DNA from: Planctomycetes bacterium GWF2_42_9
GTDB lineage: Bacteria > Planctomycetota > Phycisphaerae > Sedimentisphaerales > UBA12454
NCBI GenBank assembly: GCA_001825675.1
Contig: MHYA01000030.1
Location: 11,969 to 49,902 of the forward strand
DNA: 37,934 nt
Reading direction: 5' to 3'
A model generated the notes under the pieces. That model was not told the origin of the DNA and made no database searches. It worked only from the letters and a program-made list of their open reading frames with translations. Every line of letters starts with the position of its first letter. Position 1 is the first letter of the stretch. Position numbers and translations under genes: made by a program. Shown in pieces: positions 4,668 to 33,099 of this stretch.

Positions 4668-4703
4668 CCATTATGCGTTAAAATATCTCCATAATGCGCA
4701 TTG
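4668..4703 (-). promoter_or_regulatory. Tandem operator, XylR/AraC-type, for the broken beta-helix gene
   Basis: Read on the coding (minus) strand, the two half-sites are CAATGCGCATTATGG (distal) and TTTAACGCATAATGG (proximal), with equivalent bases exactly 21 bp apart. A possible -10 (CATAAG) begins 25 nt after the proximal GG, and the start codon at 4559 is about 108 nt downstream. The spacing of two helical turns is that of AraC-family direct-repeat sites. The binding protein is inferred to be the XylR-like regulator at 30085-31239. Confidence 0.7.
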
Positions 4704-4709
4704 AACTTT

Positions 4710-4745
4710 GCTTGCGCATTTTGGTGAGTTTTTGACAAAAAATGG
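4710..4745 (+). promoter_or_regulatory. Tandem operator, XylR/AraC-type, for the large plus-strand operon
   Basis: The half-sites are GCTTGCGCATTTTGG (4710-4724) and TTTGACAAAAAATGG (4731-4745), 21 bp apart, in mirror orientation to the neighbouring operator at 4668-4703. The proximal half is the weakest of the set because it lacks the GCG core. A GATAAA element lies about 22 nt downstream and the first gene of the operon starts at 4839. Only 6 bp separate the two divergent operators. Confidence 0.65.
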
Positions 4746-4838
4746 TGTTGTTTTGCCTCGAATGTGTGATAAACTTTAGTATTCAAAAGCGTTGCCTAAA
4801 ACCTGTTTCTATCGTCATTTGGGAGTCGCAAAGCACCA

Positions 4839-5333
4839 ATGAGCAATATCTGGTTTATGAAAATAAATTTTTTTTCGCGGAAATTGTTTTTTTTATCTCT
4901 TCTCTGCGGAATATGCGTTTCTGTGCTGATAGGCTTTCAAATTCACAAACAAGCTCATCTAAATTTTAATACACGAACGGAAATAAAGGAATTTACAAAA
5001 AAACTAAATTCAATTAGTGAATTATCATCTGGTATTAATTTCGTAATCCAAGAGAACACCAGCGATTATAATAAAAAAATAGCTTATGCAAAATTGCTCA
5101 ACAAATTTAATCTTCGGGATTTCTCGAAAATTCAAAATCCAGACATCCTTAAATTAAAAGATAGTTATAAAATTTCAGCAGGCAAATCTTTTGCGGTAAA
5201 GGAATATGGAATTGTTATCATTGTTCTAACTGTAATATTCTCATTGGGGCTGACTATACCTTCTTTCTGGCTTTTTTTTAGCTTGGGGATGGCGGGTATC
5301 AACTATTTATCTAAGGATAGGGAAGCTGTTTGA
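4839..5333 (+). CDS. Small two-TM membrane protein of unknown function, first gene of the operon
   Basis: 164 residues; not a family I recognise. One hydrophobic segment lies at about residues 12-32 and another at about 124-150, with a polar, lysine- and asparagine-rich loop of about 90 residues between them that is probably outside the cytoplasm. The start at 4839 follows a GGGAG about 13 nt upstream. ATG 4857, residue 7, is a possible alternative. Its stop overlaps the next start (TTGA, 5330-5333), so it is very likely co-translated with the symporter. That coupling suggests a role in transport or membrane assembly, but nothing in the sequence proves it. It sits directly behind operator 4710-4745. 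Confidence 0.7.
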   Translation: MSNIWFMKINFFSRKLFFLSLLCGICVSVLIGFQIHKQAHLNFNTRTEIKEFTKKLNSISELSSGINFVIQENTSDYNKKIAYAKLLNKFNLRDFSKIQNPDILKLKDSYKISAGKSFAVKEYGIVIIVLTVIFSLGLTIPSFWLFFSLGMAGINYLSKDREAV

Positions 5334-6715
5334 AACCAAAACCTTTTGGACAATTAAATTTTCTTCAGATTTTAGCCTATAATCTGGGTATGTCGGCAGA
5401 AGTAATCACGCTAAGCACTGTCGGATTGCTGGCAATGCCAATCTACAGTATGGCTTTGGGTGTGAATCCCGCTATGGTAGGGATTATCTTTTTCATTCCG
5501 CGTTTTTTGGATGCAATTATTGACCCTTTAATGGGCTACTTATCCGATAACACAAGAACAAAATGGGGCAGACGCAGACCATACCTTGCTATCGGCGGAA
5601 TTTTAACAGGTTTATCTTATATGTTAATGTGGTGTCCGCCTCTGTTCTTAACCAAAACAGGATTGTTTGCTTATTTTCTTATATGGTCAATTATTTTTTA
5701 CATAAGTTTGACAGTATATATCGTTCCGTATTATGCGTTAGGCAATGAAATCACTTTCGATTCCCGAATACGCGCAAAAGTAATGGCGTGGCGAAATTTG
5801 ATATGGGGCGGCGTTACATTGCTTGCACCGTGGACTTACAGTCTTTGTTTTTCACCATATTTCGGTAAAAACGAACTCGAAGGCGTCAGAGTTGTGGGGT
5901 TAATTTTTGGTTCGTTCGTTGCATTATGCGCGTTAATACCGGCAATATTCAGCCGGGAAAACATGGAAATACAAAAACAACCAAGAATCAATTTCATTCC
6001 AGCATTGAAAGAGTCATTCAGCAATAAAGCATTTTTAATTTTATCCATAGTTCGTATGTGTGCCAATTTCGGAACTGGCCTGGTAGGACCGATGATAATT
6101 TATGTGATTACATATCACGTTTATAAAGGAGATAAATCAGCAACGGCAAGTTTGTGGGGCTTTGTCGGTATGTCATGGGGTATCGGAGCAATTGTATCGG
6201 CTCCGATAGTAGATTATCTAGTGAAATCTCTTGGCACAAAAATAACTTTATACATTTCATTGATTGCCGTCTGCGTCGGACAGGTATTGTCTCTGCCGCT
6301 TATCACACCGGCAAATCCTTACCTTTCGACGATTCCATTTTTGTTTGGCGCTCCGGGAATAATGGGACTCTTTGCGGTAACCTCAATATGGCTGGCGGAT
6401 GTATGCGACTATGATGAATACCTGTACGGTAAACGCAGAGAAGGAATGTTCAGCGCAGTAATCAGCCTGATATTTAAGATAGGAACCGCAATTGCAACCG
6501 GGCTTTCCGGTTTGCTTATCGCGATTGCCGGCATCAGCGCAGAACCCGGCGTTACGCAGACTGAACATGCCGTATCAATGCTGCGGTATCTTTACACTTT
6601 TGTACCAATAGGATTTGTAATCGTTTCAGCAGCGTTGGGGTGGTTCTATCCTCTCAACGAACAAACAATGAAAGAAATAAAAGCTGAATTGGATAAACGC
6701 AGCAGCAAAAAATAA
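5330..6715 (+). CDS. GPH-family (MelB-like) sugar:cation symporter
   Basis: 461 residues, about twelve hydrophobic segments, the usual length for glycoside-pentoside-hexuronide:cation symporters of the major facilitator superfamily. The stretch at residues 61-83 (DAIIDPLMGYLSDNTRTK then WGRRRP) is the family's signature loop between helices 2 and 3, with the cation-site aspartates and the arginine cluster. The start codon is TTG, overlapping the previous stop by 4 nt and preceded by GGGAAG. Known relatives carry melibiose, xylosides or glucuronides with Na+ or H+. Here it probably imports the oligosaccharides that the cytoplasmic GH2 and GH65 enzymes of this operon break down. The exact sugar cannot be read from sequence. 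Confidence 0.88.
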   Translation: MKPKPFGQLNFLQILAYNLGMSAEVITLSTVGLLAMPIYSMALGVNPAMVGIIFFIPRFLDAIIDPLMGYLSDNTRTKWGRRRPYLAIGGILTGLSYMLMWCPPLFLTKTGLFAYFLIWSIIFYISLTVYIVPYYALGNEITFDSRIRAKVMAWRNLIWGGVTLLAPWTYSLCFSPYFGKNELEGVRVVGLIFGSFVALCALIPAIFSRENMEIQKQPRINFIPALKESFSNKAFLILSIVRMCANFGTGLVGPMIIYVITYHVYKGDKSATASLWGFVGMSWGIGAIVSAPIVDYLVKSLGTKITLYISLIAVCVGQVLSLPLITPANPYLSTIPFLFGAPGIMGLFAVTSIWLADVCDYDEYLYGKRREGMFSAVISLIFKIGTAIATGLSGLLIAIAGISAEPGVTQTEHAVSMLRYLYTFVPIGFVIVSAALGWFYPLNEQTMKEIKAELDKRSSKK

Positions 6716-6741
6716 CCAGACAGAAATATTGGTTAGCAGAA

Positions 6742-9441
6742 ATGACAAAATTATTCATAAAACGTACAGTTCTTCTTTTTGCATCAATCTTCAGCTACAC
6801 AGCCGCTGTATATGGCGATATTAATATCTATGTATCAGTCAATACTGATGCTGATTGTAACGGTTCGTATGAAAAACCATTCGGCGCAATTGTTCAGGCA
6901 AAAGACTTTATACGAAAGCTGAAAGCTGACGGCCAATTTAATTCGCCGGTACATATTTTATTGGCTGACGGCATATATAATATGAATGAAACTATCGTTT
7001 TTGACGAGAATGACAGCGGTACAGAGGAAAACCCAATTTCCTACGAAGCGCAGTCAAACGCAAAGCCAATCCTGTCCGGCGGAAAAGTAATTACGGGCTT
7101 TAAAAAGAGCGATAATGGTATCTGGCAGGTTTATATCCCTGAAGCAAACGAGGGCAAATGGTATTTTGAGCAATTGTTTATCAACGGCAAACGAGCGGTT
7201 CGTGCGCGACATCCAAACAAATTTTATCATTATATTACCCAAAAAATTTCGGATTCTGAAAATAATACACGCTTCATTGCTGATCATAAAGATTCAGTAT
7301 TGATTAACAAAATAAATCGGAAGCATTTAAATGATGTTACAGCGGTCTTTTACCATTCTTGGACAATATCGCGAAATCGGATTGATTCGATTGATGAAAA
7401 TAATGATGTTTTTATTTTGACCGGACCGGCAGGAAGAAGATTTCTTGAGGCGCCATATCAACGGTATCATTTTGAAAATTTCATTGAGGCGTTGGACGAA
7501 TGCGGAGAATGGTTTTTAAGCAGAAATGGAATGTTATACTATAAACCATTTAAAAATGAAGATATGAACTCCGCCCAAGTAATTGCACCAGTCATCGGGA
7601 GATTTATAGAATTAAAAGGTAATGCACAAGAACAGAAATTTGTTGAACACATCAATTTCAAAAATATTTCATTCCAATACGGCCAATATATTTTGCCGCC
7701 CGAAGGACAAAAAGATACGCAAGCCGCTGCATCAATTATCGACGCCGCTGTAATGGCTGATTACGCAAAAGCCATAAGTTTCGAAAATTGTGAAATCGCA
7801 CACATCGGCACGACCGCGATATGGTTTAAATATGGATGCTCTGATTGCTCAATAAATAAATGTTATATCCACGATTTCGGCGCATCAGGTTTATGCATCG
7901 GCGGAGACGATTTATCGCTGCCAATTACAAGCCATATTGAAGCAGATAACAATATTATCCGTTCAGGTGGACAAATTCATTTTGGAGCTGTCGGTATTAA
8001 GATCGGACACAGCAGTGATAATAAAATTACACATAATGATATTTCAGATATGCGATATACCGGCATTTCAGTTGGTTGGAAATGGGATTATGGCAAAAGC
8101 CCTGCTGAAAGAAATAAAATAGAATACAATCATATTCATCATATTGGGCAAGGTGTCCTGAGTGATATGGGCGGAATTTATACGCTTGGTGAATCGCCCG
8201 GTACAACGATATGCAACAATGTAATACATGACATCTATTCTTATGATATGTACGGTCGAGGCGGCTGGGGTATTTATACAGATCAGGCAAGTTCGGCTAT
8301 GCTGATAGAAAATAATCTTATTTATAACACTAAGACCGGAAGCTATTCGTTGCATTACGGCAGCGATTTGATTGTCAGAAACAACATTTTCGCATTCGCA
8401 ATGGACGGCCAGCTTCAGCGTGTTCCTGCTGGGATATGGAATCGTGCGATACAAGGCCGTATCTGGTTTGAAAATAATATTATCTATTGGCAAAACGGCG
8501 ACCTTTATTACGGCGACAACTGGAATAACTGGAACGATGAAAATGTTTTATCATTTAATAATGTTTATTGGAACACATCAGGACAAAATATTGAGTTTGA
8601 TGACTCGCTCAATCTCGCACAAATTCAAAAATTTGGACGAGAAAACAATTCTATAAAAACAGACCCCTGCTTCATTGACGCAGAGCATTTCGATTTTAAT
8701 TTAAAGCCAAATTCACCAGCTATTAAATTAGGATTCAAACCGTTTGATTATACAAAGAGCGGAATATATGGTGATTCGCAATGGACAGTATTGGCAAATG
8801 ATTTTAATTATCCGAAAGTCGAATTTGCACCGGAACCCCCTGCCGGCAATACTTTAACAATTAATGAAGATTTTGAGTCGGTGCCGCTCGATTCGATACC
8901 TGATAACTCAAAAGCAGATGTCGAAAAATCAGGCGATTCAATTGCAGTAACTGATTTGTACGCAGCCCGTGGAAAAAATAGTCTTAAAATTACTGACGCA
9001 TTGGGGCTTAAGTTTACAGAAAATCCTAAATTTTATTACCAAACGTATTTTACAGAAGGCACTTCAATAGTTTCTTTTGATTTAAGGTTGGAACAAAACG
9101 CGGAAATTGAACATCTTTGGCGGGATGCTTTAAAATATCAGACCGGTCCAAAACTAAAAATTAAAAATAACTCACTAATCGTCAACGGCCGAAATCTTTT
9201 ATCACTGCCGACGCAGCAATGGATTCATTTTGAGATAACTGCAATGCAAGGCAAACACGCAAACGGTAAATGGACAATGGAAGTTACGCTACCAAATGGC
9301 GATAAACATTTTTTTGATGCACTAAAGACCAAAGCATCAGGATGGAACAGAACAACACAAATAGAATTCTCAAGTATGGCAGCACGACATGCTGAATTTT
9401 ATTTAGATAACATAAAAATTACTAATTCATCAAATGATTAA
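6742..9441 (+). CDS. Secreted right-handed parallel beta-helix protein with C-terminal jelly-roll domain
   Basis: 899 residues. An N-terminal signal peptide (to about residue 26, ending near VYGD) is followed by IYVSVNTDADCNGSYEKPFG, the typical lead-in of beta-helix carbohydrate enzymes, and by ADGIYNMNETIVF and SGGKVITGF. Residues of about 300-650 contain regular turns such as NKCYIHDFGASGLCIGG and ENNLIYN that form the helix. From about residue 705 a separate beta-rich domain starts (NEDFESV to YLDNIKIT), resembling concanavalin/LamG-type jelly rolls. The likely role is an extracytoplasmic glycosidase or lyase; GH141-like is my best guess and no catalytic residues can be named. It lies 26 bp after the symporter gene and 15 bp before a UroD-like gene. 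Confidence 0.75.
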   Translation: MTKLFIKRTVLLFASIFSYTAAVYGDINIYVSVNTDADCNGSYEKPFGAIVQAKDFIRKLKADGQFNSPVHILLADGIYNMNETIVFDENDSGTEENPISYEAQSNAKPILSGGKVITGFKKSDNGIWQVYIPEANEGKWYFEQLFINGKRAVRARHPNKFYHYITQKISDSENNTRFIADHKDSVLINKINRKHLNDVTAVFYHSWTISRNRIDSIDENNDVFILTGPAGRRFLEAPYQRYHFENFIEALDECGEWFLSRNGMLYYKPFKNEDMNSAQVIAPVIGRFIELKGNAQEQKFVEHINFKNISFQYGQYILPPEGQKDTQAAASIIDAAVMADYAKAISFENCEIAHIGTTAIWFKYGCSDCSINKCYIHDFGASGLCIGGDDLSLPITSHIEADNNIIRSGGQIHFGAVGIKIGHSSDNKITHNDISDMRYTGISVGWKWDYGKSPAERNKIEYNHIHHIGQGVLSDMGGIYTLGESPGTTICNNVIHDIYSYDMYGRGGWGIYTDQASSAMLIENNLIYNTKTGSYSLHYGSDLIVRNNIFAFAMDGQLQRVPAGIWNRAIQGRIWFENNIIYWQNGDLYYGDNWNNWNDENVLSFNNVYWNTSGQNIEFDDSLNLAQIQKFGRENNSIKTDPCFIDAEHFDFNLKPNSPAIKLGFKPFDYTKSGIYGDSQWTVLANDFNYPKVEFAPEPPAGNTLTINEDFESVPLDSIPDNSKADVEKSGDSIAVTDLYAARGKNSLKITDALGLKFTENPKFYYQTYFTEGTSIVSFDLRLEQNAEIEHLWRDALKYQTGPKLKIKNNSLIVNGRNLLSLPTQQWIHFEITAMQGKHANGKWTMEVTLPNGDKHFFDALKTKASGWNRTTQIEFSSMAARHAEFYLDNIKITNSSND

Positions 9442-9456
9442 GAAGGATACTCGATT

Positions 9457-10476
9457 ATGCGAAAACCTGATTTCCAAAACATTTTGAAGGTATTGAAAAG
9501 ACAAGTGCCGGACAGACCTACACTTTTTGAATTTTTTCTCAATGAACCATTATACCAAAAGCTCGCAGCTCCTGCGGGTCCATTTACCGATAAATGGACT
9601 TTCGGTTTATGCTGCCCGATGGTAATTAACGCTTATAAATACGCAGGCTATGATTATACGACTGTTCTTGGTTCCGAGTTTACTTTTCAGTTGCAGGAAA
9701 TAGAAAGCAAAGAAACCGTATCACTCAACGCAGGCAATGCGATTCGGGACAGAAAAAGTTTCGAGGCTTATAATTGGCCAGACCCTGAAAAATTTGATTA
9801 TTCGCGATTAGAGCAAGCACGAAATTGGCTGCCGGACGGTATGAAGCTGATTGTTTTCGGACCGCGGGGAGTGCTGGAAAATGTTCTCGTACTGGTTGGA
9901 TATGAAACATTATGTATGATGATGATCGATGATCCTGAACTTACACAGGCAATTTTTGATGGCGTCGGCAAACGCTTATTAAAATATTATGAGATTTGCG
10001 CAGCTTATGATACGGTTGGAGCGCTTATATCAAACGATGACTGGGGATTCAAAACCCAGACAATGCTGTCGCCTGCGGATATGCGAAAATATGTTTTCCC
10101 CTGGCACAAAAAAATTGTTGAAGCAATTCACAAAACAGGAAAACCCGCTATTCTGCATTCTTGCGGCAATCTCGACAAGGTAATAGGCGACTTAATTGAC
10201 GACATAAAATATGACGGCAAACATTCTTATGAAGATACTATTTTGCCAGTAGAAGATGCGTATGAAAAATGGGGTTCGCGCATTGCGATATTAGGCGGGA
10301 TAGATTTGGATTTCGTCTGCCAGTCAACGCCGCAGCAACTAACCAAAAGATGCAAAGCAATCCTGGAAAGAACTAAATCCCGCGGCGGTTACGCTCTCGG
10401 AACAGGCAACAGCGTTCCCGAATACGTCCCCGATGAAAACTTCTTTGCAATGATTAATTGCGTTCGCGGAGAGTAA
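9457..10476 (+). CDS. UroD-like (uroporphyrinogen decarboxylase superfamily) protein, probable methyltransferase type
   Basis: 339 residues, ATG preceded by AGGA. The protein spans a single UroD/MtaA-type TIM barrel. The motif HSCGN at residues 234-238 matches the H-x-C-G element that binds zinc in corrinoid-linked methyltransferases such as MtaA. The C-terminal GGYALGTGNSVPEYVP is the segment typical of sugar-cluster UroD relatives. True HemE has a different N-terminus and sits with haem genes, which are absent here. The gene is flanked by a beta-helix gene and GH65 with 3-nt spacing, so it must be made together with sugar enzymes. The reaction is unknown. Demethylation of O-methyl sugars or transfer to a corrinoid is possible, but no corrinoid protein is encoded in the window. 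Confidence 0.8.
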   Translation: MRKPDFQNILKVLKRQVPDRPTLFEFFLNEPLYQKLAAPAGPFTDKWTFGLCCPMVINAYKYAGYDYTTVLGSEFTFQLQEIESKETVSLNAGNAIRDRKSFEAYNWPDPEKFDYSRLEQARNWLPDGMKLIVFGPRGVLENVLVLVGYETLCMMMIDDPELTQAIFDGVGKRLLKYYEICAAYDTVGALISNDDWGFKTQTMLSPADMRKYVFPWHKKIVEAIHKTGKPAILHSCGNLDKVIGDLIDDIKYDGKHSYEDTILPVEDAYEKWGSRIAILGGIDLDFVCQSTPQQLTKRCKAILERTKSRGGYALGTGNSVPEYVPDENFFAMINCVRGE

Positions 10477-10479
10477 CAA

Positions 10480-12819
10480 ATGACCAAACAAGCAACTCGC
10501 TATCTTGAAGTTGATCCTTGGGTGATTGAAGAAAAAGATTTTTATCCAAAATACTCTATGGTCTCCGAATCTATATTTTCGCTCGCCAACGAATTTATGG
10601 GTGTGCGTGGATATTTTGATGAAGGATACACAGGCCAAACAATGGTCGGCAGTTATTTCAACGGCATCTTTGAAAGATTTTACATTGAGCATCCTTTTGC
10701 GCATCGTGGAATGGCATCGCAGGAACAAAAGATGCTAAATTCCGTTGACTGGCTCTACACAAGATTGATATTAGATGATGAAACGCTGGATATCGCGAAC
10801 TGCAAATTTACTGATTTCACTCGCAAACTCGATTTAAGAACCGGCGTATTGACTAGAGAATTTATCTGGCACAATAAAAAAGGTAAAAAACTGCGTCTTA
10901 AGTTCGAACGATTCTTAAGTATGGATTATCATCAGCTTGGTTTTCAACGAATTACTTTTGAGCCGTTGAATTTTTCCGGGATAATAAAAGTTGAATCAGG
11001 CCTTGATTTCAATCTTATTCATCATAACACAAGCGGATTCAAATCTAAACCTTTTGAAAGTTTATGGGTTTGCAGAAAAAAAGGCAGGCAAAACAATATC
11101 ACCGCTATATTAAGTCAAATACCGGTAAGTCAGCATACGGTTTTTTGCGCGTTCAAACTGGATTTGCCGGATAAAACTAAATGTAAACAAAATCAAGATG
11201 AAAAATTTATAAGCCAGTCTTTTGAAATAAAACTTCAGCAGGGACAAAAAACTCATTTTGATAAAACCGCAGTCGGCGTTACGGAGAAAAATCCGAATGT
11301 CCCGTATCGAACTTTGTGGAACATCGGCATAGAAAAAACTTCTAAACTAAGGGAAATAGATTTTGACAACGCACTTGAAAAACAAAAAAAATACTGGTCT
11401 GATGTTTGGGAAAAACTCGACATTAAAATAGAAGGCGACAGTCTCAATCAGCAAGGAATACGATTCTGCATCTTCAATCTTCATCAGACATATCACGGCG
11501 TTGATTCATCATTAAACGTGCCCGCAAAAGGTTTGAGCGGCGATGGTTATGATGGCAAAACATGGTGGGATACGGAAACGTACTGCCTGCCGTTTTATAT
11601 GTTCAATAATCCAAAGGCCGCGAAGAATCTGCTCGACTATCGTTATAAAACATTGCCACAGGCATGTGAACGCAGCAAAGAAGTTGATGGATGCAAAGGC
11701 GCACGCTACCCGATGTCGACCATTGACGGCATCGAAACGTGTTATGTCTGGCAGCACGGCGATTTGGAAATACACGTATCGGCTGCGGTAGTTTATGGTA
11801 TCTGGCATTATGATAAAATCATCGGCGACAAGGAATTTTTATATACTAAAGGCATTGAAATGCTTTTGGAGATTTGCCGGTATCACGCATCTCGCGGCAG
11901 TTTCAGCCAGAAAACAGGCGAGTTCGGTTTCTGGAATGTTATGGGGCCTGATGAATTTCACATGCAGGTAAATAACAACGCTTATACCAACTGTATGGCG
12001 AAAAAAATGTTTGAATACACGCTGGATGTCGTCAAAGAAATGCATGTAAAATCTCCGCAGCAGCTTCGGAAAGTTGCTAAGAAAATTAATCTTAACGAAT
12101 CAGAATTAAAAGGTTGGATTAATAAAGCTCGAAAGATGCGAACCAACTTTGACAAAAAGACAGAAATGTTCGAGCAGCACGATGGTTTCTTTGATTTGCC
12201 GCACATAGATTGTCGCAGCATTTCGCCCGAAGAATACCCGATTTACAGCCATTGGCCATATTTGAAAATATTCAGATATGATATGTGCAAACAGCCTGAT
12301 GCCCTGCTGCTGCTATTTTTCTTTGGCAATGATTATTCTAAACAATGCAAAAAAACAAATTATGAATATTATGAATCGCGATGCAGTCATGAGTCATCGC
12401 TTTCGCCGGCGATTCATTCCATTTTGGCCGCCGAACTGGGCAAGCATAAAGAAGCATATAAATTTTTTGCTCACGCAACACGCCTTGATTTAGACGATTA
12501 CAATCGCAACGCCTGGGCCGGTCTGCATATAACAAGTATGGCCGGGGCTTGGATGAATATTGTTCAGGGATTTGGAGGAATGCGAACAGACGGAAACACT
12601 CTGTCATTTGCTCCGTCAATCCCGGCAAAATGGAAAGCCTTTAGTTTCAAAATTTTATACAACGATACCGTTTTGGAAGTACGAATCGATAGGAAATATG
12701 CATATTTTATAACCTCCAATGAAAACACTATTCAAATACAGGTATTTAACAAAAAGTACAAAGTAAATAAATCCGGCATATCTGTGAAACTTCCCGCCGG
12801 AAGAATCGCAAAGGCATAA
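10480..12819 (+). CDS. Glycoside hydrolase family 65 protein, probable disaccharide phosphorylase
   Basis: 779 residues, standard length for GH65 and no signal peptide, so cytoplasmic. The N-terminal beta-sandwich begins around VDPWVIEEKDFYPKYS, a very typical GH65 opening with NEFMGVRGYFDEGY. In the (alpha/alpha)6 barrel, WWDTETY lies at residues 362-368 and GPDEFH carries the general-acid glutamate E492. The conserved Arg-His-Glu and AWAGLH stretches are also present. GH65 phosphorylases split alpha-glucosides (maltose, kojibiose, nigerose, trehalose) with inversion to give beta-glucose 1-phosphate. The next gene, 1 bp away, is beta-phosphoglucomutase, which uses exactly that product, so phosphorolysis is the likely activity. 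Which linkage is cut cannot be decided. A 3-nt gap joins it to the UroD-like gene upstream. Confidence 0.92.
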   Translation: MTKQATRYLEVDPWVIEEKDFYPKYSMVSESIFSLANEFMGVRGYFDEGYTGQTMVGSYFNGIFERFYIEHPFAHRGMASQEQKMLNSVDWLYTRLILDDETLDIANCKFTDFTRKLDLRTGVLTREFIWHNKKGKKLRLKFERFLSMDYHQLGFQRITFEPLNFSGIIKVESGLDFNLIHHNTSGFKSKPFESLWVCRKKGRQNNITAILSQIPVSQHTVFCAFKLDLPDKTKCKQNQDEKFISQSFEIKLQQGQKTHFDKTAVGVTEKNPNVPYRTLWNIGIEKTSKLREIDFDNALEKQKKYWSDVWEKLDIKIEGDSLNQQGIRFCIFNLHQTYHGVDSSLNVPAKGLSGDGYDGKTWWDTETYCLPFYMFNNPKAAKNLLDYRYKTLPQACERSKEVDGCKGARYPMSTIDGIETCYVWQHGDLEIHVSAAVVYGIWHYDKIIGDKEFLYTKGIEMLLEICRYHASRGSFSQKTGEFGFWNVMGPDEFHMQVNNNAYTNCMAKKMFEYTLDVVKEMHVKSPQQLRKVAKKINLNESELKGWINKARKMRTNFDKKTEMFEQHDGFFDLPHIDCRSISPEEYPIYSHWPYLKIFRYDMCKQPDALLLLFFFGNDYSKQCKKTNYEYYESRCSHESSLSPAIHSILAAELGKHKEAYKFFAHATRLDLDDYNRNAWAGLHITSMAGAWMNIVQGFGGMRTDGNTLSFAPSIPAKWKAFSFKILYNDTVLEVRIDRKYAYFITSNENTIQIQVFNKKYKVNKSGISVKLPAGRIAKA

Positions 12820-12820
12820 T

Positions 12821-13498
12821 GTGGAAATAAAAGCTGTTATATTTGATCTTGACGGCGTTATAGTATCAACGGATGAATTTCATTATCAAGCGTGGCAGAG
12901 TCTTGCTGATGGAGAAGGAATTTATTTTGACCGAAAGATAAACGACAATCTGCGAGGTATCAGCAGGATGGAAAGTCTGGAAATTATTCTTCGCAAAGCA
13001 ACAAAAAAATATTCAGATTCTCAAAAAGCTGAAATGGCAGCTCGTAAAAATAATTATTATTGCAAATTACTGGAAAAACTTAGCCCGGCAGACCTGCTTC
13101 CATCAGTTACTAACATCCTGAACGATTTGAGAACACGCGGAATTAAAATGGCGGTCGGCTCATCCAGTAAAAATTCGCCAGTAATATTGAACCGCATCGG
13201 ACTTGGTACATATTTCGATGCAACGGCCGATGGTAATGACATTAAAAAAAGCAAGCCAGACCCGGAAGTATTTTTGCTTGCGGCAGAAAGGCTAAAAATA
13301 GCTTCGCGGCATTGCCTTGTAATAGAAGACGCAACGGCAGGTGTTGAGGCAGCAATAAACGCCAAGATGTATGTACTCGCGATTGGTCAGGCAAAATCTG
13401 ATATGCGCGCACATTTACGTGCAAATGACCTAGCATCGGCGGATTTCGTTGAGATTTTTAAAAATCACGGAGAATATCAATGTCAAAATCAGGATTGA
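12821..13498 (+). CDS. pgmB: Beta-phosphoglucomutase (HAD superfamily)
   Basis: 225 residues, GTG start preceded by AAAGG. The HAD motif I DLDGV contains nucleophile D9 and acid/base D11. A helical cap follows (STDEFHYQAW), then motif II (GSSSKNS), the lysine motif KKSKPDPEVF and the acidic motif VIEDATAGVEAA. This set is typical of beta-PGM and interconverts beta-glucose 1-phosphate and glucose 6-phosphate. Its position immediately behind GH65 supports this role. The gene overlaps the next CDS by 19 nt, indicating translational coupling. Other HAD phosphatases share the fold, but the cap sequence and the neighbour favour beta-PGM. Confidence 0.92.
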   Translation: MEIKAVIFDLDGVIVSTDEFHYQAWQSLADGEGIYFDRKINDNLRGISRMESLEIILRKATKKYSDSQKAEMAARKNNYYCKLLEKLSPADLLPSVTNILNDLRTRGIKMAVGSSSKNSPVILNRIGLGTYFDATADGNDIKKSKPDPEVFLLAAERLKIASRHCLVIEDATAGVEAAINAKMYVLAIGQAKSDMRAHLRANDLASADFVEIFKNHGEYQCQNQD

Positions 13499-17935: not shown

Positions 17936-17944
17936 AGGAAATAT

Positions 17945-20092: not shown

Positions 20093-20103
20093 GAGTATTA
20101 CGG

Positions 20104-22496: not shown

Positions 22497-22507
22497 AGAA
22501 CTTTAAA

Positions 22508-25500: not shown

Positions 25501-25969
25501 ACCACATCGTAACATATATATCACTTGCGGTAACAGTTCCACCTGTCATACGAAGTGTACCAGTTCCGCCTTGCCCTACTACAAGAGTTGTCGTAACATT
25601 TACTACGGCGTTGTCCATAACATTAACCGTTGCGGTTGTCAAATCATCAAACTGCGCTATAACAATACCTCTGGCAGTCAAGCTGCCAGTCTCCTTTACA
25701 TTAAGTGTAGTTGTAAACCCAGTGGTGTTGGCACTAACACAGTCCCGACAAACGACATTATCGCCAGACGCAATGTTACACACTTCGGGACTTCCGTTCC
25801 AGCCGTTGAAAGTCGCATCAATACTCGCAGTCGGAAGTCCAGAGTTAGCAATCCAGTTGGCAGAATTATTCCATCGATGGTCACCCGTATCAAAATAATA
25901 ATTGGCCGATGCTAAACTGCTGAAAATAAGTACTAAAACGGCAATTGAAACAAACTTTTTAATATACAT
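22508..25969 (-). CDS. Large secreted multidomain beta-helix protein with embedded dockerin
   Basis: 1153 residues. Signal peptide to about residue 22 (SSLASA). Residues 23-235 form a beta-rich module nearly the same as the PEP-CTERM protein at 27600-28379. Residues 241-391 are a fibronectin-III-like domain (SVILSWTKVNPSESYDVYFGTD, TYYWRID, WSFST) interrupted by two dockerin repeats at about 290-343 (DITNDGVIDFEDLKLLGDQW; NADINNDNKVNFADF). The catalytic-type beta-helix runs from about 398 (DTYYVSTDGSDLAAG) to about 1060. A second Fn3-like domain (YYWCVDEYDSDGNLLGSGDI) ends the protein. Dockerins normally bind cohesins; none is visible in the window. It is probably a polysaccharide-acting enzyme, GH141-like, anchored or scaffolded at the cell surface. 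It is the intact relative of the broken gene at 973-4559. Confidence 0.82.
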   Translation of the reverse strand: MYIKKFVSIAVLVLIFSSLASANYYFDTGDHRWNNSANWIANSGLPTASIDATFNGWNGSPEVCNIASGDNVVCRDCVSANTTGFTTTLNVKETGSLTARGIVIAQFDDLTTATVNVMDNAVVNVTTTLVVGQGGTGTLRMTGGTVTASDIYVTMWFEGAVGHIQLDGGTLTATNNFWMGIEGQVSSMDIRGGTLKVPYTLGSTMENYIAAGKITAYGATGLAGFESTVSNNQYILSAVCPYNPVPENGTISLPQSVILSWTKVNPSESYDVYFGTDCNDVKNASAEFLAEDITNDGVIDFEDLKLLGDQWLIGTVPPGNNADINNDNKVNFADFSKLSSRWNKNSIFRVHQTQTTYNPGMLTKGVTYYWRIDVTENGQTYKGLVWSFSTSSGLEPDTYYVSTDGSDLAAGMIEQPFKTLEKVRDMIRTNGLAEGGVTVFLRGGKYFRSSEFDLTNLYSGADSKPITYSAYPGEEVRIIGGVQLQPSWFSYVNISSPVWGRLDDSAQGNIMQVNLSAHGITDYGVMRERGFFRHQRSHLEISFNGQLLQLARWPNSGLEDIGTAVSDTAFTYSGTRPERWTSAPDPWAFGYFQFQYADQYEAIANIDTVNKRITLGSRPVNGVGDNGTWYALNLLEELDSPGEWYLDRATGILYLWPPANISSAEIIVSTLGENSEKLVNCCNASFVNFKGITFEMCRYDAIQISGGTNVVFDNCVIRNAGAIGINILGGSNHLIQNTEIADVGDMGIYMKSGDIFALTPSNNTVQNCSIHGFGRWNRTYNPGVYMHGVGQKVRHNLMYDAPHSALIWGVCNQDNWSEYAANNNLIEFNNIFNVCQESGDAGALYTGRSWANRGNIVRYNFIHNIVSSETPYVHAIYMDDCSSGNNIFGNILYAATGEAVMCGGGRDNIIKNNIIAKCGSAFFTDRRGVAVINETASDPWNLLELLSQYNFTQPPWSTAYPALSAIPSSYSDPRYAQVKNPENGVFTQNISWSNSNYLVEGGWGGTGGLSYYAITNNIQNQNPLFIDEEHLIMALHEYSPAYTINGFQRVPWEKMGNLLQDKASRPILPTGWGSAPVSPKLYWAPALTAATHKVYLSQTPNPRTDGYKGEFAESSYVSSTLQNHTIYYWCVDEYDSDGNLLGSGDIWNFTTNY

Positions 25970-25985
25970 TCTTTGTCTCTTTAAA

Positions 25986-27536
25986 TTAATTATTTTGACA
26001 TGAGCATAACCAATATTTCGCCATTAAACTCAAATCATATAAATCAACATTTGAATCATTATTAACATCTCCATCAATCGAAGAGCCGCTTTGCTGCCAA
26101 TTTTGGTTTAATTTGGCATAATCAACCATATTCACCAAATTGCTTCCGTCGATATCCGCCCGCTGACATTCCGTTGTAACTACGTTTGATAGTACATTAT
26201 ACCATTGTTGCGCCATTTTTAAATAGCCATTATCATTAGGGTGCAAAGTATCCGCCATATCAGTCGAATAATTAAGTGCGTGTTCTAAATCCACCATAGC
26301 CAGCAGGTCGCCATTGGCGATTCTGTTCTGAACTAATGTTTCAACGGCATTATTAAAAGCGTTTGTTTTAACATCCCCAACTTCAAGGACAATCCTCGCA
26401 ACAATAACAATCACTTGTCTGTTTTGTGATGATTCGTAAGAATCTATATTGTCAAGAATCTGTCCGATTATGGCCGGATCCTGTGTTCCCTGAACAATAT
26501 CATTAGTACCGATATGCAGCAGGACAATATCTGCAAGATTATTAACGAGCCAATTATAAACATTATCTCTGATTTGATATGAATACCAGCCCGGATAACC
26601 TTCGTGGTCGCAGTCGTTAAAATCACCATTGAACTGACTGCCGACAAATTCCACATTATAACCGTTCGTTGTCAGCATTTGATACAACGGTTTGCGATAA
26701 CCGTTAAGTCCGCTTGGCGTCGAACCTATACCATACGTTATTGAATCCCCCAAAGGCATTATTCTTGCATCTATGCTGGAAGGTTTATCCACAGCAGTCA
26801 ATGTCGCGGTATTGGCTAACGGATTCGGCGTTAGCACTACCTTTCCAGTTCCGCCGTTTGCAGTAATTATACCGCTATTTACATAGCCACGTGTATCTAC
26901 CTGTTGCGCATAAGGTGTAATAACTTTAGCCGCAGCGCCGGAGATATCCAAATGCGCATTGTCATACCCATAAGTGCTCCAATAATACTTGGAACCAAAT
27001 CCTGCCCATAATTTTGTTCGTACAGTAACAGTGGAATTGCCTGAAACATTCATTTGAGCGATTGCATCCGCATTGAATTGTGTCAGATATAATTGCGCAG
27101 TATTAATAGACGCATCTCGCACATTAAGTACATGTGAGCCTCCCGAACCTACGGTAAAAATACCACCGACATAAACATTCCCTGCATTTATATCGACCAC
27201 CCCTGTTGTATCATTATACACACCTAACACGAAATCTTTGCCCACAGTTAAATTACCTGTAATCTCGAAACCTGTTGTGGTTCCCGCGGTGTTGGAATAT
27301 GGGCAATAGAGATATTTGACGGTACTGCTGGTTGTTAATCTCGGATGCACATTGTTATTGATATTTATGGTATGAGTGCTGAAATCAGGCAAAACAGTCA
27401 GGCGTATCCATGAGCCATCACGCCAGTTGCCAGGCGTAGTCCACAAGTTATCACCAGACTCATTTGTAAAATACATATTTGCCGCAAAAAGGCTTACAGA
27501 AAAAAACAAAACAAAACAAATTGATGCTATACGCAT
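25986..27536 (-). CDS. Secreted SGNH/GDSL esterase with dockerin repeats
   Basis: 516 residues if started at the ATG 27534-27536, which is preceded by AGGGG. An upstream ATG at 27566 lies in a terminator hairpin and is unlikely. The signal peptide is MRIASICFVLFFSVSLFAA. Residues up to about 250 are a beta-rich module. The SGNH domain follows: block I GDSITYG with S265, block III GTND at 343-346, and block V DTLHPND with D429 and H432. Two dockerin-like repeats close the protein (ADIDGSNLVNMVDYAKL; GDVNNDSNVDLYDLSLMAKY). Such enzymes often remove acetyl or other ester groups from xylan or pectin. The N-terminal module (YLYCPY, GFGSKYYWSTYG, YDNAHLDI) matches that of the partial dockerin protein at 36588-37934. 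Confidence 0.85.
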   Translation of the reverse strand: MRIASICFVLFFSVSLFAANMYFTNESGDNLWTTPGNWRDGSWIRLTVLPDFSTHTININNNVHPRLTTSSTVKYLYCPYSNTAGTTTGFEITGNLTVGKDFVLGVYNDTTGVVDINAGNVYVGGIFTVGSGGSHVLNVRDASINTAQLYLTQFNADAIAQMNVSGNSTVTVRTKLWAGFGSKYYWSTYGYDNAHLDISGAAAKVITPYAQQVDTRGYVNSGIITANGGTGKVVLTPNPLANTATLTAVDKPSSIDARIMPLGDSITYGIGSTPSGLNGYRKPLYQMLTTNGYNVEFVGSQFNGDFNDCDHEGYPGWYSYQIRDNVYNWLVNNLADIVLLHIGTNDIVQGTQDPAIIGQILDNIDSYESSQNRQVIVIVARIVLEVGDVKTNAFNNAVETLVQNRIANGDLLAMVDLEHALNYSTDMADTLHPNDNGYLKMAQQWYNVLSNVVTTECQRADIDGSNLVNMVDYAKLNQNWQQSGSSIDGDVNNDSNVDLYDLSLMAKYWLCSCQNN

Positions 27537-27548
27537 AATACCCCTATA

Positions 27549-27580
27549 TAAAAAGAGGACAGACATAACGTCTGTCCTCT
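27549..27580 (-). terminator. Intrinsic terminator after the PEP-CTERM gene
   Basis: A perfect 11-bp stem (AGAGGACAGAC, 27554-27564, with GTCTGTCCTCT, 27570-27580) and a 5-nt loop is followed on the minus strand by TTTTTATA. It lies about 20 bp past the PEP-CTERM stop and only about 13-18 bp before the ATG of the SGNH esterase gene, with no room for a separate promoter in between. Partial read-through is therefore likely. Confidence 0.85.
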
Positions 27581-27599
27581 AATGCTCAAAACTAAATTT

Positions 27600-28379
27600 T
27601 TATTTTTTACGACGGAGGAAAAGACCGCCAAGACCCAGGAGCGACATTGTAATTGGTTCTGGAACAGCCTGGAAGGTCCAATATGTTGCGCCATCTGTAG
27701 CTTCGACAAAGTTACTCAAACCATTCAGACCGTTAGCAGTAATTTTGCCTGCAGCAATGTAAGCTTCAATTGTTGAACCAAGTGCGTATGGAACTTTCAG
27801 TGTTCCGCCGCTGATATCCGCACTGCTTACCTGACCATCAATGCCCATCCAGAAATTGTTTTTAGCAACAAGCACTCCGCCGTCAAGCTGGATATGTCCA
27901 ACAGCACCTTCAAACCACATTGTAACATATATGTCATTTGCTGTAACTGTTCCGCCTGTCATGTGGAGAGTACCAGTGCCGCCCTGACCAACTACAAGTG
28001 TAGCCGCGACATTCACAACGGCATTGTCCATAACATTGATAGTTGCGGTTGTCGCATCATCGAACTGTGCAATAACAACGTTGGTGGCAGTAAGGGTACC
28101 TGTACCTTTTACATTAAGCGTAGTTGTAAACCCATTGGTGTTAGCGCTGACAAGGTCGGAGCAAACAGCATTGTCACCAGATTCAATGTTGCACACTTCC
28201 GGACTTCCGTTCCAGCCATTAAAAGTTGCGCCAATAGTAGCGTCTGGGAGGCCGGAGTTATAAACCCAGTTGGAAGGATTAGTCCATTTGTGATCGCCTG
28301 TGTCAAAAAAATAATTGGCCGAGGCTAAACCACTGAAAGTAAGTAACAAAACAACAATTGGAATGATTTTTTTCAACAT
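27600..28379 (-). CDS. PEP-CTERM sorted secreted protein
   Basis: 259 residues, ATG with GGAG upstream. The signal peptide ends near residue 22 (SGLASA). The body is a beta-rich repeat module (VVIAQFDDATTATINVMDN, LVVGQGGTGTLHMTGG, YVTMWFEGAVGHIQLDGG) almost the same as residues 23-235 of the 1153-residue protein two genes downstream. The C-terminus has the PEP-CTERM signal: VPEP, a short hydrophobic stretch LGLGGLF and the basic tail LRRKK, recognised by an exosortase-type system for surface attachment. No enzyme motif is visible; it may be a glycan-binding or surface-layer protein. It is the first gene of the operon, directly behind operator 28525-28560, and a strong terminator follows it, suggesting it is made at higher level than its operon mates. 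Confidence 0.88.
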   Translation of the reverse strand: MLKKIIPIVVLLLTFSGLASANYFFDTGDHKWTNPSNWVYNSGLPDATIGATFNGWNGSPEVCNIESGDNAVCSDLVSANTNGFTTTLNVKGTGTLTATNVVIAQFDDATTATINVMDNAVVNVAATLVVGQGGTGTLHMTGGTVTANDIYVTMWFEGAVGHIQLDGGVLVAKNNFWMGIDGQVSSADISGGTLKVPYALGSTIEAYIAAGKITANGLNGLSNFVEATDGATYWTFQAVPEPITMSLLGLGGLFLRRKK

Positions 28380-28524
28380 CTTCGTTCTCCTTAAAAAAAA
28401 TAAAATTCAATAACTATTCATCACCATATAAAGACGTCTTACGGTGCCATTATTTTTATCTGCAGTTAAATACAGGCACATTAACCAACTTTAAATATAA
28501 CACTTAAACAGTTTCTTCGTATCT

Positions 28525-28560
28525 CCATTTTGCATAAAAACATAACCATATTGCGCAAAA
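28525..28560 (-). promoter_or_regulatory. Tandem operator and promoter of the PEP-CTERM operon
   Basis: On the coding (minus) strand the half-sites are TTTTGCGCAATATGG (distal) and TTTTATGCAAAATGG (proximal), 21 bp apart. TATATT, a good -10, starts exactly 25 nt beyond the proximal GG (28494-28499). The start codon is about 146 nt away, leaving a leader of about 110 nt. Confidence 0.78.
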
Positions 28561-28586
28561 CATTAAATAGATAATATTGCATTATT

Positions 28587-29957
28587 TCAAGCTTCCATCC
28601 TGCTGGGTTGAGCAACCTGTTCTTTAGTTTTACTGACATCTTTAATTGGAACAGGAACACGTCTCTGCACCATCCTGAATTGTCTTCCCAAAGCTGAAAA
28701 CATCGCTAAAACGTTATCTATCGGTGTATTAGCCTGGATATTATGTATTGTGTTAAAAACATAACCTGATTTTTGACCCAAAATATTCACTCGTTCAGCT
28801 ACTTCTTTATAAACTTCCTGCGGAGTTCCGAAAGGCAGAGTTTTTTGCGTATCCACGCCTCCGCCCCAGAATACAATTTTCCCGCCATATTTATCAACTA
28901 ACCCCTGCGGCTCCATTCCTTTGGCTGAACATTGAACAGGATTTAAAATGTCATAACCCGCATTGATGAAATTATTAATCAACGGTTCACAAGCTCCGCA
29001 GCAGTGTTTTATCGTTTTCCATTTGGTATGCGTATGAATCCAGTCATTAACTTTTTTCACATAAGGCAGATACAAATCATCATAAGCCTTAGGGCTGCAA
29101 AATAACGTATTCTGCGCGGCAAGATCAGTACCATCCATCCAGACCATCTGTATTTTGTCGCCAACGGCCTGATAAAGCATTTTCAGATTTTCGATCGCAA
29201 CCTCTGCCTGTGCCGCAAAAACTTCTTTTAAATAATCTTTGCGTAAAATTGTGCTTACATACCATTCTTCAATATCTCGAATACCTTTGGGATCTTTCAG
29301 AAATGGTGCAGGTACTAATGCCGCATCACCGAATGCAGTCCCCGGCACTGCCATTACAATAGCAAGGTTTGTATTAGTAAACAAATAATCAGCTCGTTTT
29401 TGATAGTAATTTAAATCCTCTTGTGAAAGCGTTGTAAATTCTTCAAGGTTATCAGTGGGATTAAGATCTGAATCATTAATCGGCTTTTGGCGAATTATTG
29501 TATCAAAATAAAAACCCTTTGAAGGCATTTTTCCAGAAGGCATCGCCGAAATATCGCCTTGCGGATACTGCATTATATTGCCGTCTTTGTCTGGTATTAT
29601 GTTGAATTTACCAGGAACCAAAACCTTCGTACCATCATGAAGCGTCCATGGTTTCCAATCGGAATTTTCAAATCCGAACATATTTTTCGGCGCTTCAAGC
29701 ATTGTTACATCTATTCCGAGAACTTCCTGCAGATCATACCCGATTTCTCCGAGCATTTGATATGGGTCGCTGACCTTTATTGGCTCATTAACATCGCTTA
29801 ATCCAAGAATCCGCCGAAGTTTAGATATAATACTTACATGCGCACCGCTGCAGCAGGTTCCACCTAAATCTACAGGTACACGGTCGGTTTGCTGGAAATT
29901 AATTGCCCCTACTACTCGCTCCCTGCTTGTCGTTCTATGTAGCGATTTCGAATTCAT
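28587..29957 (-). CDS. UroD-like protein, larger form with H-C-C-G-A-C motif
   Basis: 456 residues from the ATG at 29955-29957, chosen because RTTSRERVVGAINFQQTDRVPVD, just after it, is the usual UroD-like N-terminus; upstream ATG 30023 adds 22 unrelated residues. A UroD-type barrel is evident, with HCCGACEPL, LNPVQCSAKGM, FWGGGVDTQ and the C-terminal FNTIHNIQANTP. The extra cysteine after HCCG makes a possible three-residue metal site (H, C, C) as in zinc-dependent cobalamin methyltransferases. The gene stands alone with its own operator (30037-30072) between the PEP-CTERM operon and the regulator. A role in sugar use, possibly on a methylated sugar, is inferred from co-regulation only. A short tail of about 20 residues after the barrel is unusual. 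Confidence 0.8.
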   Translation of the reverse strand: MNSKSLHRTTSRERVVGAINFQQTDRVPVDLGGTCCSGAHVSIISKLRRILGLSDVNEPIKVSDPYQMLGEIGYDLQEVLGIDVTMLEAPKNMFGFENSDWKPWTLHDGTKVLVPGKFNIIPDKDGNIMQYPQGDISAMPSGKMPSKGFYFDTIIRQKPINDSDLNPTDNLEEFTTLSQEDLNYYQKRADYLFTNTNLAIVMAVPGTAFGDAALVPAPFLKDPKGIRDIEEWYVSTILRKDYLKEVFAAQAEVAIENLKMLYQAVGDKIQMVWMDGTDLAAQNTLFCSPKAYDDLYLPYVKKVNDWIHTHTKWKTIKHCCGACEPLINNFINAGYDILNPVQCSAKGMEPQGLVDKYGGKIVFWGGGVDTQKTLPFGTPQEVYKEVAERVNILGQKSGYVFNTIHNIQANTPIDNVLAMFSALGRQFRMVQRRVPVPIKDVSKTKEQVAQPSRMEA

Positions 29958-30036
29958 AAATATTACAATTCCTAAAATAAAAACCTGATTAATAGGATAA
30001 TAGTTATTATAATTCGAGTGCACTGCTACTTGATAA

Positions 30037-30072
30037 CCATTTTGCGTGAATATATCACCATTGTGCGCAAGT
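30037..30072 (-). promoter_or_regulatory. Tandem operator and promoter of the single UroD-like gene
   Basis: Coding-strand half-sites ACTTGCGCACAATGG and ATTCACGCAAAATGG, 21 bp apart. A consensus TATAAT begins exactly 25 nt after the proximal GG (30006-30011). The UroD-like start at 29957 is about 80 nt from the operator. The stop of the regulator gene (30085) is only 13 bp away on the other side. Confidence 0.8.
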
Positions 30073-30084
30073 TGCGGTTATTTG

Positions 30085-31239
30085 CTATTCCGGCTTTCTG
30101 TGTTGTCTGCGGAAATCACTTGGTGTAATACCCTTAAGTTCTTTGAAATAGCGTGAGATATGCGCAAAATCGGCATAACCTAATTTTGACGCGATTTGCG
30201 TTATTGTCATTGAATCATCTATAAGCAATTTTGTTATTTGCTCTATTCTCACTCGTTTGATTTCCTGATGAATCGAACGCTTAATTGCTTTTTGGAATCT
30301 CAATTCAAGGTTTCGCCTTGACATAGCGAGCGAATTCGCGACATCGCTGACCTGTATAACATGCTTGGAATCGCGAATGAACCTGACTGCATCCGCAACA
30401 ACCTTATCCTCTACGGCAAGTACGTCTGTTGATTGGCGTGTCAGGACGTGTGTCGGTTTTACGTAAATGTTATTATAATTTTTCGCACTTTTCCTGCTCA
30501 TCATCATTTTATGCAATAGTTCCGCCGCCGCATAACCCGCTGCCGGTGCGTCCAGTGCGACGCTTGATAATGGCGGATTACACAATTCACAAAACAATTC
30601 ATCGTTATCAACTCCGAGAACAGCGATTTCATCAGGCACATAAATTCCCGCGGCCTTGGCTGCTTCAGTAACATGCTGCCCGTGATCATCGTTACATGTA
30701 AATATTCCGATTGGCTTGGGCAAACTTTTAAGCCAGTTAATTAAAGATAATTGCTCTTTGTTCCAGTATCTTTCAAATCTGAATCGCGGTCGATTATATT
30801 GGTGCACATTAAAACCAGCCTGCGTAACACGTTCAACAAAACTTTTTTCACGATCGTCTGACCAGTGCATATCGTTGAACCCACAAAACGCATAATTCTT
30901 GAAACCTCTGTCTAAAAGGTGTTCGGCAGCCATTACCCCTATTGCAGAACAATCTCCCAGTATATTGGGGTATCCTGCTATAACTTCTTTTATTGCAATA
31001 GCTATGGCGGGCACTCCCGGCGGTATTAATTGGCTCACTGCTTTGGAAGATGGGATACGAGCTATTATGCCGTCAACTCCCCAGTTTGCCAGATTCGGCA
31101 AAGACCATGTCATTCCGCCCGGCTCAAGATAAAATGTCCACGGCCCGTGAAGCCGCGAATATTTCGTAATCCCATACAATAATTTGCGTCCATACGCACG
31201 AGAAGTCTCAATTAATAAAAGGACTTTAGGTTGTGCCAT
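30085..31239 (-). CDS. xylR: XylR-type transcription regulator (LacI-like sensor fused to AraC HTH)
   Basis: 384 residues from the ATG at 31237-31239, preferred over ATG 31254 because GGGATG stands 6 nt ahead. Residues up to about 270 form a periplasmic-binding-protein-like sugar sensor (VLLLIETSRAYGRKLLYGI, FTCNDDHGQHVTEAAKAAG, AVLGVDNDELFCELCNPPLS). The last 100 residues are an AraC-type double helix-turn-helix (SRRNLELRFQKAIKRSIHQE; ITQIASKLGYADFAHISRYF, KGITPSDFRRQHR). This is the architecture of E. coli XylR, which binds tandem direct repeats and activates transcription with xylose. Here the effector is unknown. The gene lies among five operators with 21-bp half-site spacing and is the best candidate to bind them. 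The symbol reflects architecture, not proven xylose response. Confidence 0.9.
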   Translation of the reverse strand: MAQPKVLLLIETSRAYGRKLLYGITKYSRLHGPWTFYLEPGGMTWSLPNLANWGVDGIIARIPSSKAVSQLIPPGVPAIAIAIKEVIAGYPNILGDCSAIGVMAAEHLLDRGFKNYAFCGFNDMHWSDDREKSFVERVTQAGFNVHQYNRPRFRFERYWNKEQLSLINWLKSLPKPIGIFTCNDDHGQHVTEAAKAAGIYVPDEIAVLGVDNDELFCELCNPPLSSVALDAPAAGYAAAELLHKMMMSRKSAKNYNNIYVKPTHVLTRQSTDVLAVEDKVVADAVRFIRDSKHVIQVSDVANSLAMSRRNLELRFQKAIKRSIHQEIKRVRIEQITKLLIDDSMTITQIASKLGYADFAHISRYFKELKGITPSDFRRQHRKPE

Positions 31240-31332
31240 TATATCATCCCGCAAAAAATTCTATTGTGTCTATATTAAAATTTCTTCTGGTTATGTTAAG
31301 AACAATTTCCTGCAAAAATTACATTATACTCT

Positions 31333-31368
31333 CTTTGCGCAATTTGGCGATATAAAAATGCAAAATGG
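31333..31368 (+). promoter_or_regulatory. Tandem operator of the symporter operon
   Basis: Half-sites CTTTGCGCAATTTGG (31333-31347) and AAAAATGCAAAATGG (31354-31368), 21 bp apart, oriented toward the plus-strand symporter gene. TATCCT at 31393-31398 is a possible -10, 24 nt after the proximal GG. The divergent regulator gene starts about 94 bp away on the other side, so this site could also affect the regulator's own expression. Confidence 0.75.
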
Positions 31369-31462
31369 CTTTTTATTTTTTAATTTGTTTATTATCCTAA
31401 TGATTTATATATCTACTTTTAATTAAATTTCTTAAGTATTTCAATGGCAGGTTAGAAAAAAT

Positions 31463-33076: not shown

Positions 33077-33099
33077 TTATCTCTCGAGAAGAAACACTA

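Follow-up and report, generated by a model that had tools for sequence, protein, structure and literature searches.

A 37,934-nucleotide stretch of contig C30 from Planctomycetes bacterium GWF2_42_9 (hereafter, the window) contains five pairs of tandem half-sites, S1 to S5, that are placed just ahead of promoters of sugar-degradation genes. Judging from their spacing, position, and promoter geometry, these pairs are probably operators of XylR-type activators of the AraC family. The window itself encodes one such protein (30085–31239, minus strand), and the same motif recurs elsewhere in the host genome, a 4.86-Mb draft in 214 contigs (92% complete with 7% contamination), and in other members of the order Sedimentisphaerales.

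Five probable tandem operator pairs and their promoter geometry

A preliminary description of the window, made by eye, had proposed these five pairs as AraC/XylR-type operators with a constant 21-bp offset. A script confirmed all five at the same positions and, reading each in coding orientation, found equivalent bases exactly 21 bp apart in every pair. S1 (4668–4703, minus strand; ATGCGCATTATGG-N8-TAACGCATAATGG) faces the minus-strand genes at 4428–1365. Back to back with it lies S2 (4710–4745, plus strand; TTGCGCATTTTGG-N8-TGACAAAAAATGG), which faces the plus-strand run at 4839–21387 and has the weakest proximal half of the five, GACAAAAAATGG. S3 (28525–28560, minus strand; TTGCGCAATATGG-N8-TTATGCAAAATGG) faces the minus-strand genes at 28379–21384, S4 (30037–30072, minus strand; TTGCGCACAATGG-N8-TCACGCAAAATGG) faces a URO-D-family gene, and S5 (31333–31368, plus strand; TTGCGCAATTTGG-N8-AAATGCAAAATGG) occupies the gap separating the xylR-type gene from the symporter gene that it faces.

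The five pairs stand well apart from the rest of the window. A consensus search recovered all five with at most four mismatches, and the next-best matches carry eight. Scored with a matrix of 36 sites from other genomes, the five pairs reach 37.8, 36.0, 34.9, 32.8, and 26.8, and no further position in the window scores 6 or more; the top score of the full matrix in 20 block-shuffled windows was 16.8. None of the 180 operator bases is coding when 26 open reading frames (ORFs) are taken as genes, and the non-coding share of the window is 3.8%. Within the window the distal halves are the better conserved, as had been noted by eye (GCGCA in five of five, compared with CGCA in two of five proximal halves). 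The 43 sites gathered from the order do not show this difference: their proximal half is conserved at least as well as the distal one, in a comparison partly fixed by the search patterns. Because the training sites came from patterns that fix CGCA and TGG, the conservation of those columns is partly circular.

The promoter geometry points to activation. The minus-strand −10 elements TATATT of S3 (28494–28499) and TATAAT of S4 (30006–30011) lie exactly 25 nucleotides past their operators, as first described. The claim of a −10 element at a similar distance holds less well for the other three: the possible element of S5, TATTAT (31390–31395, plus strand), lies at 21 nucleotides, and the candidates at S1 and S2 match at four of six positions at best (CATAAG at 25 and TAAGAT at 27; TAAACT at 24). 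Over 86 distinct sites, −10-like hexamers peak 24 to 25 nucleotides past the proximal half, with 37 observed against 2.7 expected from shuffles, and such a hexamer lies 21 to 27 nucleotides past the site in 50 of the 86. A T is present at +3 in 77 and at +4 in 68 of these sites, so that the operator ends 2 nucleotides ahead of a −35-like TT. Since the −35 element would start 2 nucleotides after the operator, the sites are placed as for class II activation, the term for regulation from such a −35-adjacent position. The −10 element of S4 falls inside the longest ORF of the URO-D-family gene behind it, which therefore probably starts at the ATG at 29957 and not at the GTG at 30023.

Distribution of the motif in the host genome and the order

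The preliminary description had assigned the motif to a five-member regulon under one regulator and had proposed a genome-wide scan. In the host genome, eight places match with at most two mismatches, and all eight lie in gaps before genes; five of these are the window pairs, and three more lie on contigs C52 and C119, which does not support a five-member regulon as first described. Eight further places carry exactly three mismatches, compared with two for a reversed-pattern control. The two C52 sites form a back-to-back pair, flanked by genes for a beta-helix protein and an alpha-L-fucosidase. The C119 site, whose letters are nearly identical to those of the window sites, lies between another XylR paralogue and a xylose isomerase gene (xylA; locus L046, 10027–11313), which is split between reading frames in the assembly and was searched through its second piece. 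The window regulator is one of eight XylR-type paralogues in this genome, which leaves the premise of a single regulator unsupported in its original form.

Across 148 genomes of the order, a strict two-half pattern occurs at 42 places in 22 genomes, and its reversed control at none. When the gap between the halves was left free from 0 to 30, 34 of 40 places had a spacing of exactly 21 bp and the remaining six were distributed among the 30 other spacings; the reversed pattern gave 2 places. The pattern CGCAnnnTGG-N10-ACGCAnnATGG has 20 exact places in 13 of 298 genomes of the class, 18 of them in members of the order and 2 elsewhere, with a reversed control of 2; outside the order, the exact pattern is thus near background. 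In another Sedimentisphaerales genome (Planctomycetota; locus L145), xylR has nearly the C119 operator. Four XylR loci from Verrucomicrobia (L141–L144) gave no site by this matrix.

The sites often accompany XylR genes. A site scoring at least 20 lies beside 27 of 110 non-redundant XylR genes in a 490-bp flank (450 bp upstream and 40 bp inside the gene), a share biased upward by at least six loci chosen because a site was present (L155, L158, L160, L161, L162, and L165) and by sites that had trained the matrix. In 25 of these 27 cases the site faces the divergent neighbor, away from xylR. Conversely, at least 22 of 52 strict sites have an XylR gene from our list, which is incomplete, no more than 2 kb away; the 52 omit G053:C4, G047:C104, and G011:C3 as chance-like and six rows with other spacings. 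For 88 sites, 75 neighboring ORFs were obtained, 13 sites having no ORF in reach. Pfam matches among these 75 include FGGY sugar kinases (eight), GH127 (three), arabinose isomerase (two), aldose epimerase (two), one fucosidase, and one symporter. An N_methyl signal resembling that of type IV pilins is present in ten of the 75 site-facing genes and a PEP-CTERM motif in seven; the encoded proteins are probably exported and under sugar control.

Several results weigh against so broad a reading of the motif as an XylR operator. No good −10 element is found at S1 and S2. The strict pattern is absent from 126 of the 148 genomes, though 89 hold an XylR at an E value of 1e-60 or better, and it occurs in just two of six relatives from the same genus. 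No site scoring at least 20 was found in the scanned flank of 83 of the 110 XylR genes, and none was found for five of the eight paralogues of the host genome (L002, L003, L006, L007, and L008). A motif private to the window or to a single regulator is nevertheless rejected, because the genome holds eight paralogues and further sites on C52 and C119, and because the motif recurs in 22 of 148 genomes, often beside XylR genes. We therefore take it to be the predicted operator type of a regulator family.

Operator letters and recognition-helix residues

Some XylR-adjacent sites carry clade-specific letters. Across the sites, operator letters appear to change together with DNA-reading residues of the regulators, one in each helix-turn-helix (HTH) motif. 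For the second motif (HTH2), the final base of both halves was masked before scoring, and each XylR was paired with its best nearby site if that scored at least 10. In a discovery set, 32 of 110 XylRs had such a site: HTH2 His occurred with G in both halves in all 23 cases, and Asn with A in seven of seven first halves and six of seven second halves; one Pro protein had T and A, and one Tyr protein A and T. After removal of 24 duplicates, a held-out set comprised 69 additional XylRs, most of them further paralogues from the genomes already sampled. Here, 12 of 13 His proteins had G in both halves and one had T and G; one entry (R, L304) repeats a site through a second reading frame. A site-first search for TGA halves in the 148 genomes, in which many places carry two mismatches and the reversed control gave none, found an XylR-like frame in 31 of 88 loci and contributed two further Asn proteins (L317 and L341), both with TGA/TGA sites. 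In genome G014, all four of the top-scoring matrix sites at the locus of the Asn-type regulator end in TGA. Nine TGA-type matches in this genome form two clusters (C1, 2504706–2528291 and 3340003–3351522; L160 and L102), one of them with an Asn-type XylR, and are possibly a larger sister regulon of that in the window.

For the first motif (HTH1), the CGC core was masked, and the 52 sites that scored higher than the 99th percentile of shuffled sequence were retained. Glu occurs with CG in 35 of 37 first halves and 32 of 37 second halves and Gln with CG in three of four cases, whereas His, Tyr, Ala, or Asp occurs with letters other than CG in ten of ten, in both halves. The window regulator has Glu in HTH1 (SRRNLELRF) and His in HTH2 (DFAHISRYF), and it therefore fits its neighboring TGCGCA...TGG sites. 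MarA Gln45 and Thr93, numbered by counting from our alignment, presumably lie in recognition helices, and MarA binds as a monomer to a single site and has no ligand domain. The two tracked residues align with these positions in the MarA–DNA complex (PDB 1bl0).

Three further groups of sites depart from the consensus. At L070, L085, L187, and L206, where HTH1 reads SRRNLHDKF, the halves resemble GCCTAAAATGG / GCAAAAAATGG and are also 21 bp apart. The C72 paralogue of the host genome (L004) together with L069, L077, and L080 has a second operator variant with CCGTATATTGG as its second half and a constant spacer, located about 160 bp from xylR and common to these four same-genus orthologues. At L269 and L273, both halves end in ATCG and not ATGG, and HTH2 of the nearby XylR reads VHFGVA or VHFAVA, a candidate further variant.

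We tentatively propose, at somewhat less than even confidence, that the XylR-type regulators of the order have expanded in number within genomes and obey a two-position code in a fixed 21-bp frame (HTH1 Glu or other with CG or non-CG; HTH2 His or Asn with TGG or TGA), so that the regulon of each uncultured paralogue would be predictable from sequence and could be swapped by single residues. Against this code stand the 15 of 22 Asn-type XylRs in the discovery set that have no scored site, as well as the held-out set, in which no Asn protein had one, a Tyr protein had G in both halves, and a Ser protein had G and T. The TGT/TGG site at L254 is an exception to the His rule. Mixed sites also occur near His proteins, at L314 and L315 downstream of the regulator gene, at L257 (two, downstream of the gene), and at L254 (one); each has TGA in its first half and TGG in its second, and the simple rule does not explain them. 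The phylogenetic independence of the association is weak. On quick trees built from the sugar-binding part only, each tracked residue changes five times and the best tree gives five independent pairs, of which only one per residue lies on well-supported branches. These pairs are mostly in the expected direction and never opposite, and they are too few for a test; the HTH1 tree analysis omits L004 (HTH1 masked) and groups Gln with Glu. Fisher values of 1e-8 and 2.5e-7 take no account of relatedness, and we do not count them as proof. The apparent tracking of regulator residues by operator letters is new here, and we found no paper on XylR operators in Planctomycetota among the matches listed from the literature covered.

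The candidate reader and its probable mode of action

The window regulator was the only one among the 25 of 32 listed window ORFs scanned for domains (the remaining seven overlap other ORFs), in agreement with the preliminary description. Its XylR N-terminal and LacI-like sugar-binding domains and AraC-type double HTH give Pfam matches to PBP1_XylR, Peripla_BP_3, and HTH_18. Its assignment to the XylR type likewise stands, with homology to Escherichia coli XylR over residues 10–383 (phmmer, E 7e-47, PDB 4fe4). Neither xylA nor xylB was found among the 25 scanned proteins, and from its context we take the protein to be XylR-type and not the regulator of a xylose operon.

From the spacing, positions, promoter geometry, conservation, and residue–base association seen in the DNA, we infer binding and activation in response to a sugar as follows. 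A dimer would occupy two direct half-sites 21 bp, or two helical turns, apart. The CGCA end of each half would be read by the first HTH, whose Glu tracks CG, and the TGG end by the second, whose His tracks the last G. With sugar bound by the LacI-like domain, RNA polymerase would then be recruited by class II activation. Located in the upstream gap of the regulator gene and facing away from it, S5 may additionally tune the regulator.

The five sites are most likely read by the window XylR, since S5 lies in its upstream gap and S4 directly behind its gene. It is possible, though distinctly less probable, that another XylR paralogue, chiefly the xylA-linked one on C119, reads the window sites mainly or equally within a wider pentose and fucoside regulon with cross-talk. 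Few letters separate the C119 site from those in the window, and the regulators of both places have Glu and His at the tracked positions. Weighing further against the window XylR as sole reader is a comparison of matrices from eight xylA-linked-type sites and from eight sites near its closest relatives, of which one lies far away and one belongs to a more distant relative: the xylA-linked matrices score S1 to S4 and both C52 sites higher, and S5 about equally. The placement of S4 and S5 argues the other way, as does the frequency with which XylR genes of relatives have an adjacent site of their own, for example the CCGTATATTGG sites of the C72 paralogue and its orthologues. With the same two residues, a near-identical site, and the better matrix fit to S1 to S4, the xylA-linked paralogue is kept as a possible co-reader.

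The known systems bear on the mode of action as well. At araI1-I2, AraC binds beside the −35 element to direct half-sites in tandem, likewise with a 21-bp offset; its sugar-binding domain is unrelated, and it both activates and, by looping to a distant site, represses. The window protein shares a related double HTH with AraC (PDB 2k9s), but unlike AraC it carries a LacI-like domain. Its architecture is that of E. coli XylR, the xylose operon activator (PDB 4fe4/4fe7), which has Tyr in place of the HTH2 His by alignment. Two XylR sites each are recorded at E. coli xylA and xylF (PMC7567609). In the xylA–xylF gap, the best 15-base direct repeat among spacings of 18 to 24 matches at 11 of 15 positions at 21 bp, followed by repeats of 10 of 15 at 21 and at 19; by this best repeat, E. 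coli XylR has the same 21-bp frame. The operator letters themselves differ: our matrix finds no site in this gap (best score −2.7). We thus regard the system as a probable XylR-type regulon with a new type of operator, to which a plausible recognition code is added.

We consider it unlikely that repression or looping, as seen for AraC without arabinose, is the main action of the regulator here in place of class II activation. Looping is conceivable given the back-to-back pairs (S1/S2 and C52) and sites many kilobases apart, yet the −10 peak at 24 to 25 nucleotides implies that the sites end before the −35 and leave the −10 uncovered. Published regulatory data list E. coli XylR as a repressor at araC but as an activator at xylA and xylF (PMC7567609), which also favors activation. 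A chance or compositional origin, for which nothing speaks beyond the small number of sites in one window, is rejected as negligible on the held-out matrix, the controls, the non-coding location, and the spacing peak.

Among the genes behind the sites are ones for transporters, glycoside hydrolases, and URO-D/MtaA-like proteins. Judged by gene order, the roughly 20 genes named in the preliminary description would form these operons. S1 faces genes for a 179-residue protein and a beta-helix protein (1365–4428, minus strand). Under S2 lie a GPH-type sugar symporter (MFS_2; 5330–6715, plus strand) and a carbohydrate-degradation run (6742–21387, plus strand) with GH141-like beta-helix, URO-D/MtaA-like, GH65, HAD, DUF5703/GH95-like, beta-helix, GH2, and AXE1 members. 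S3 is followed by genes for a PEP-CTERM protein, GDSL/dockerin and beta-helix/dockerin proteins, and a 370-residue protein (21384–28379, minus strand), S4 by a URO-D/MtaA-like protein (28587–29957, minus strand), and S5 by an SSF symporter and two URO-D-family proteins (31463–35249, plus strand). Four URO-D-family proteins thus lie under these operators (9457–10476, 28587–29957, 33100–34131, and 34128–35249). Three of the four were scanned against NCBIfam and resemble MtaA/CmuA-type methyltransferases, far below the cut-offs; they may form a family of their own, linked to glycan use. An L-rhamnose mutarotase-like gene (35279–35719; Pfam rhaM, under the NCBIfam cut-off) has no operator of this type.

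A motif first seen by eye thereby becomes a searchable operator for sugar regulators in little-studied polysaccharide degraders, to which our analysis adds an activator-type promoter geometry. It also suggests two residue–base predictions for recognition in the AraC family, which could be checked by single substitutions.

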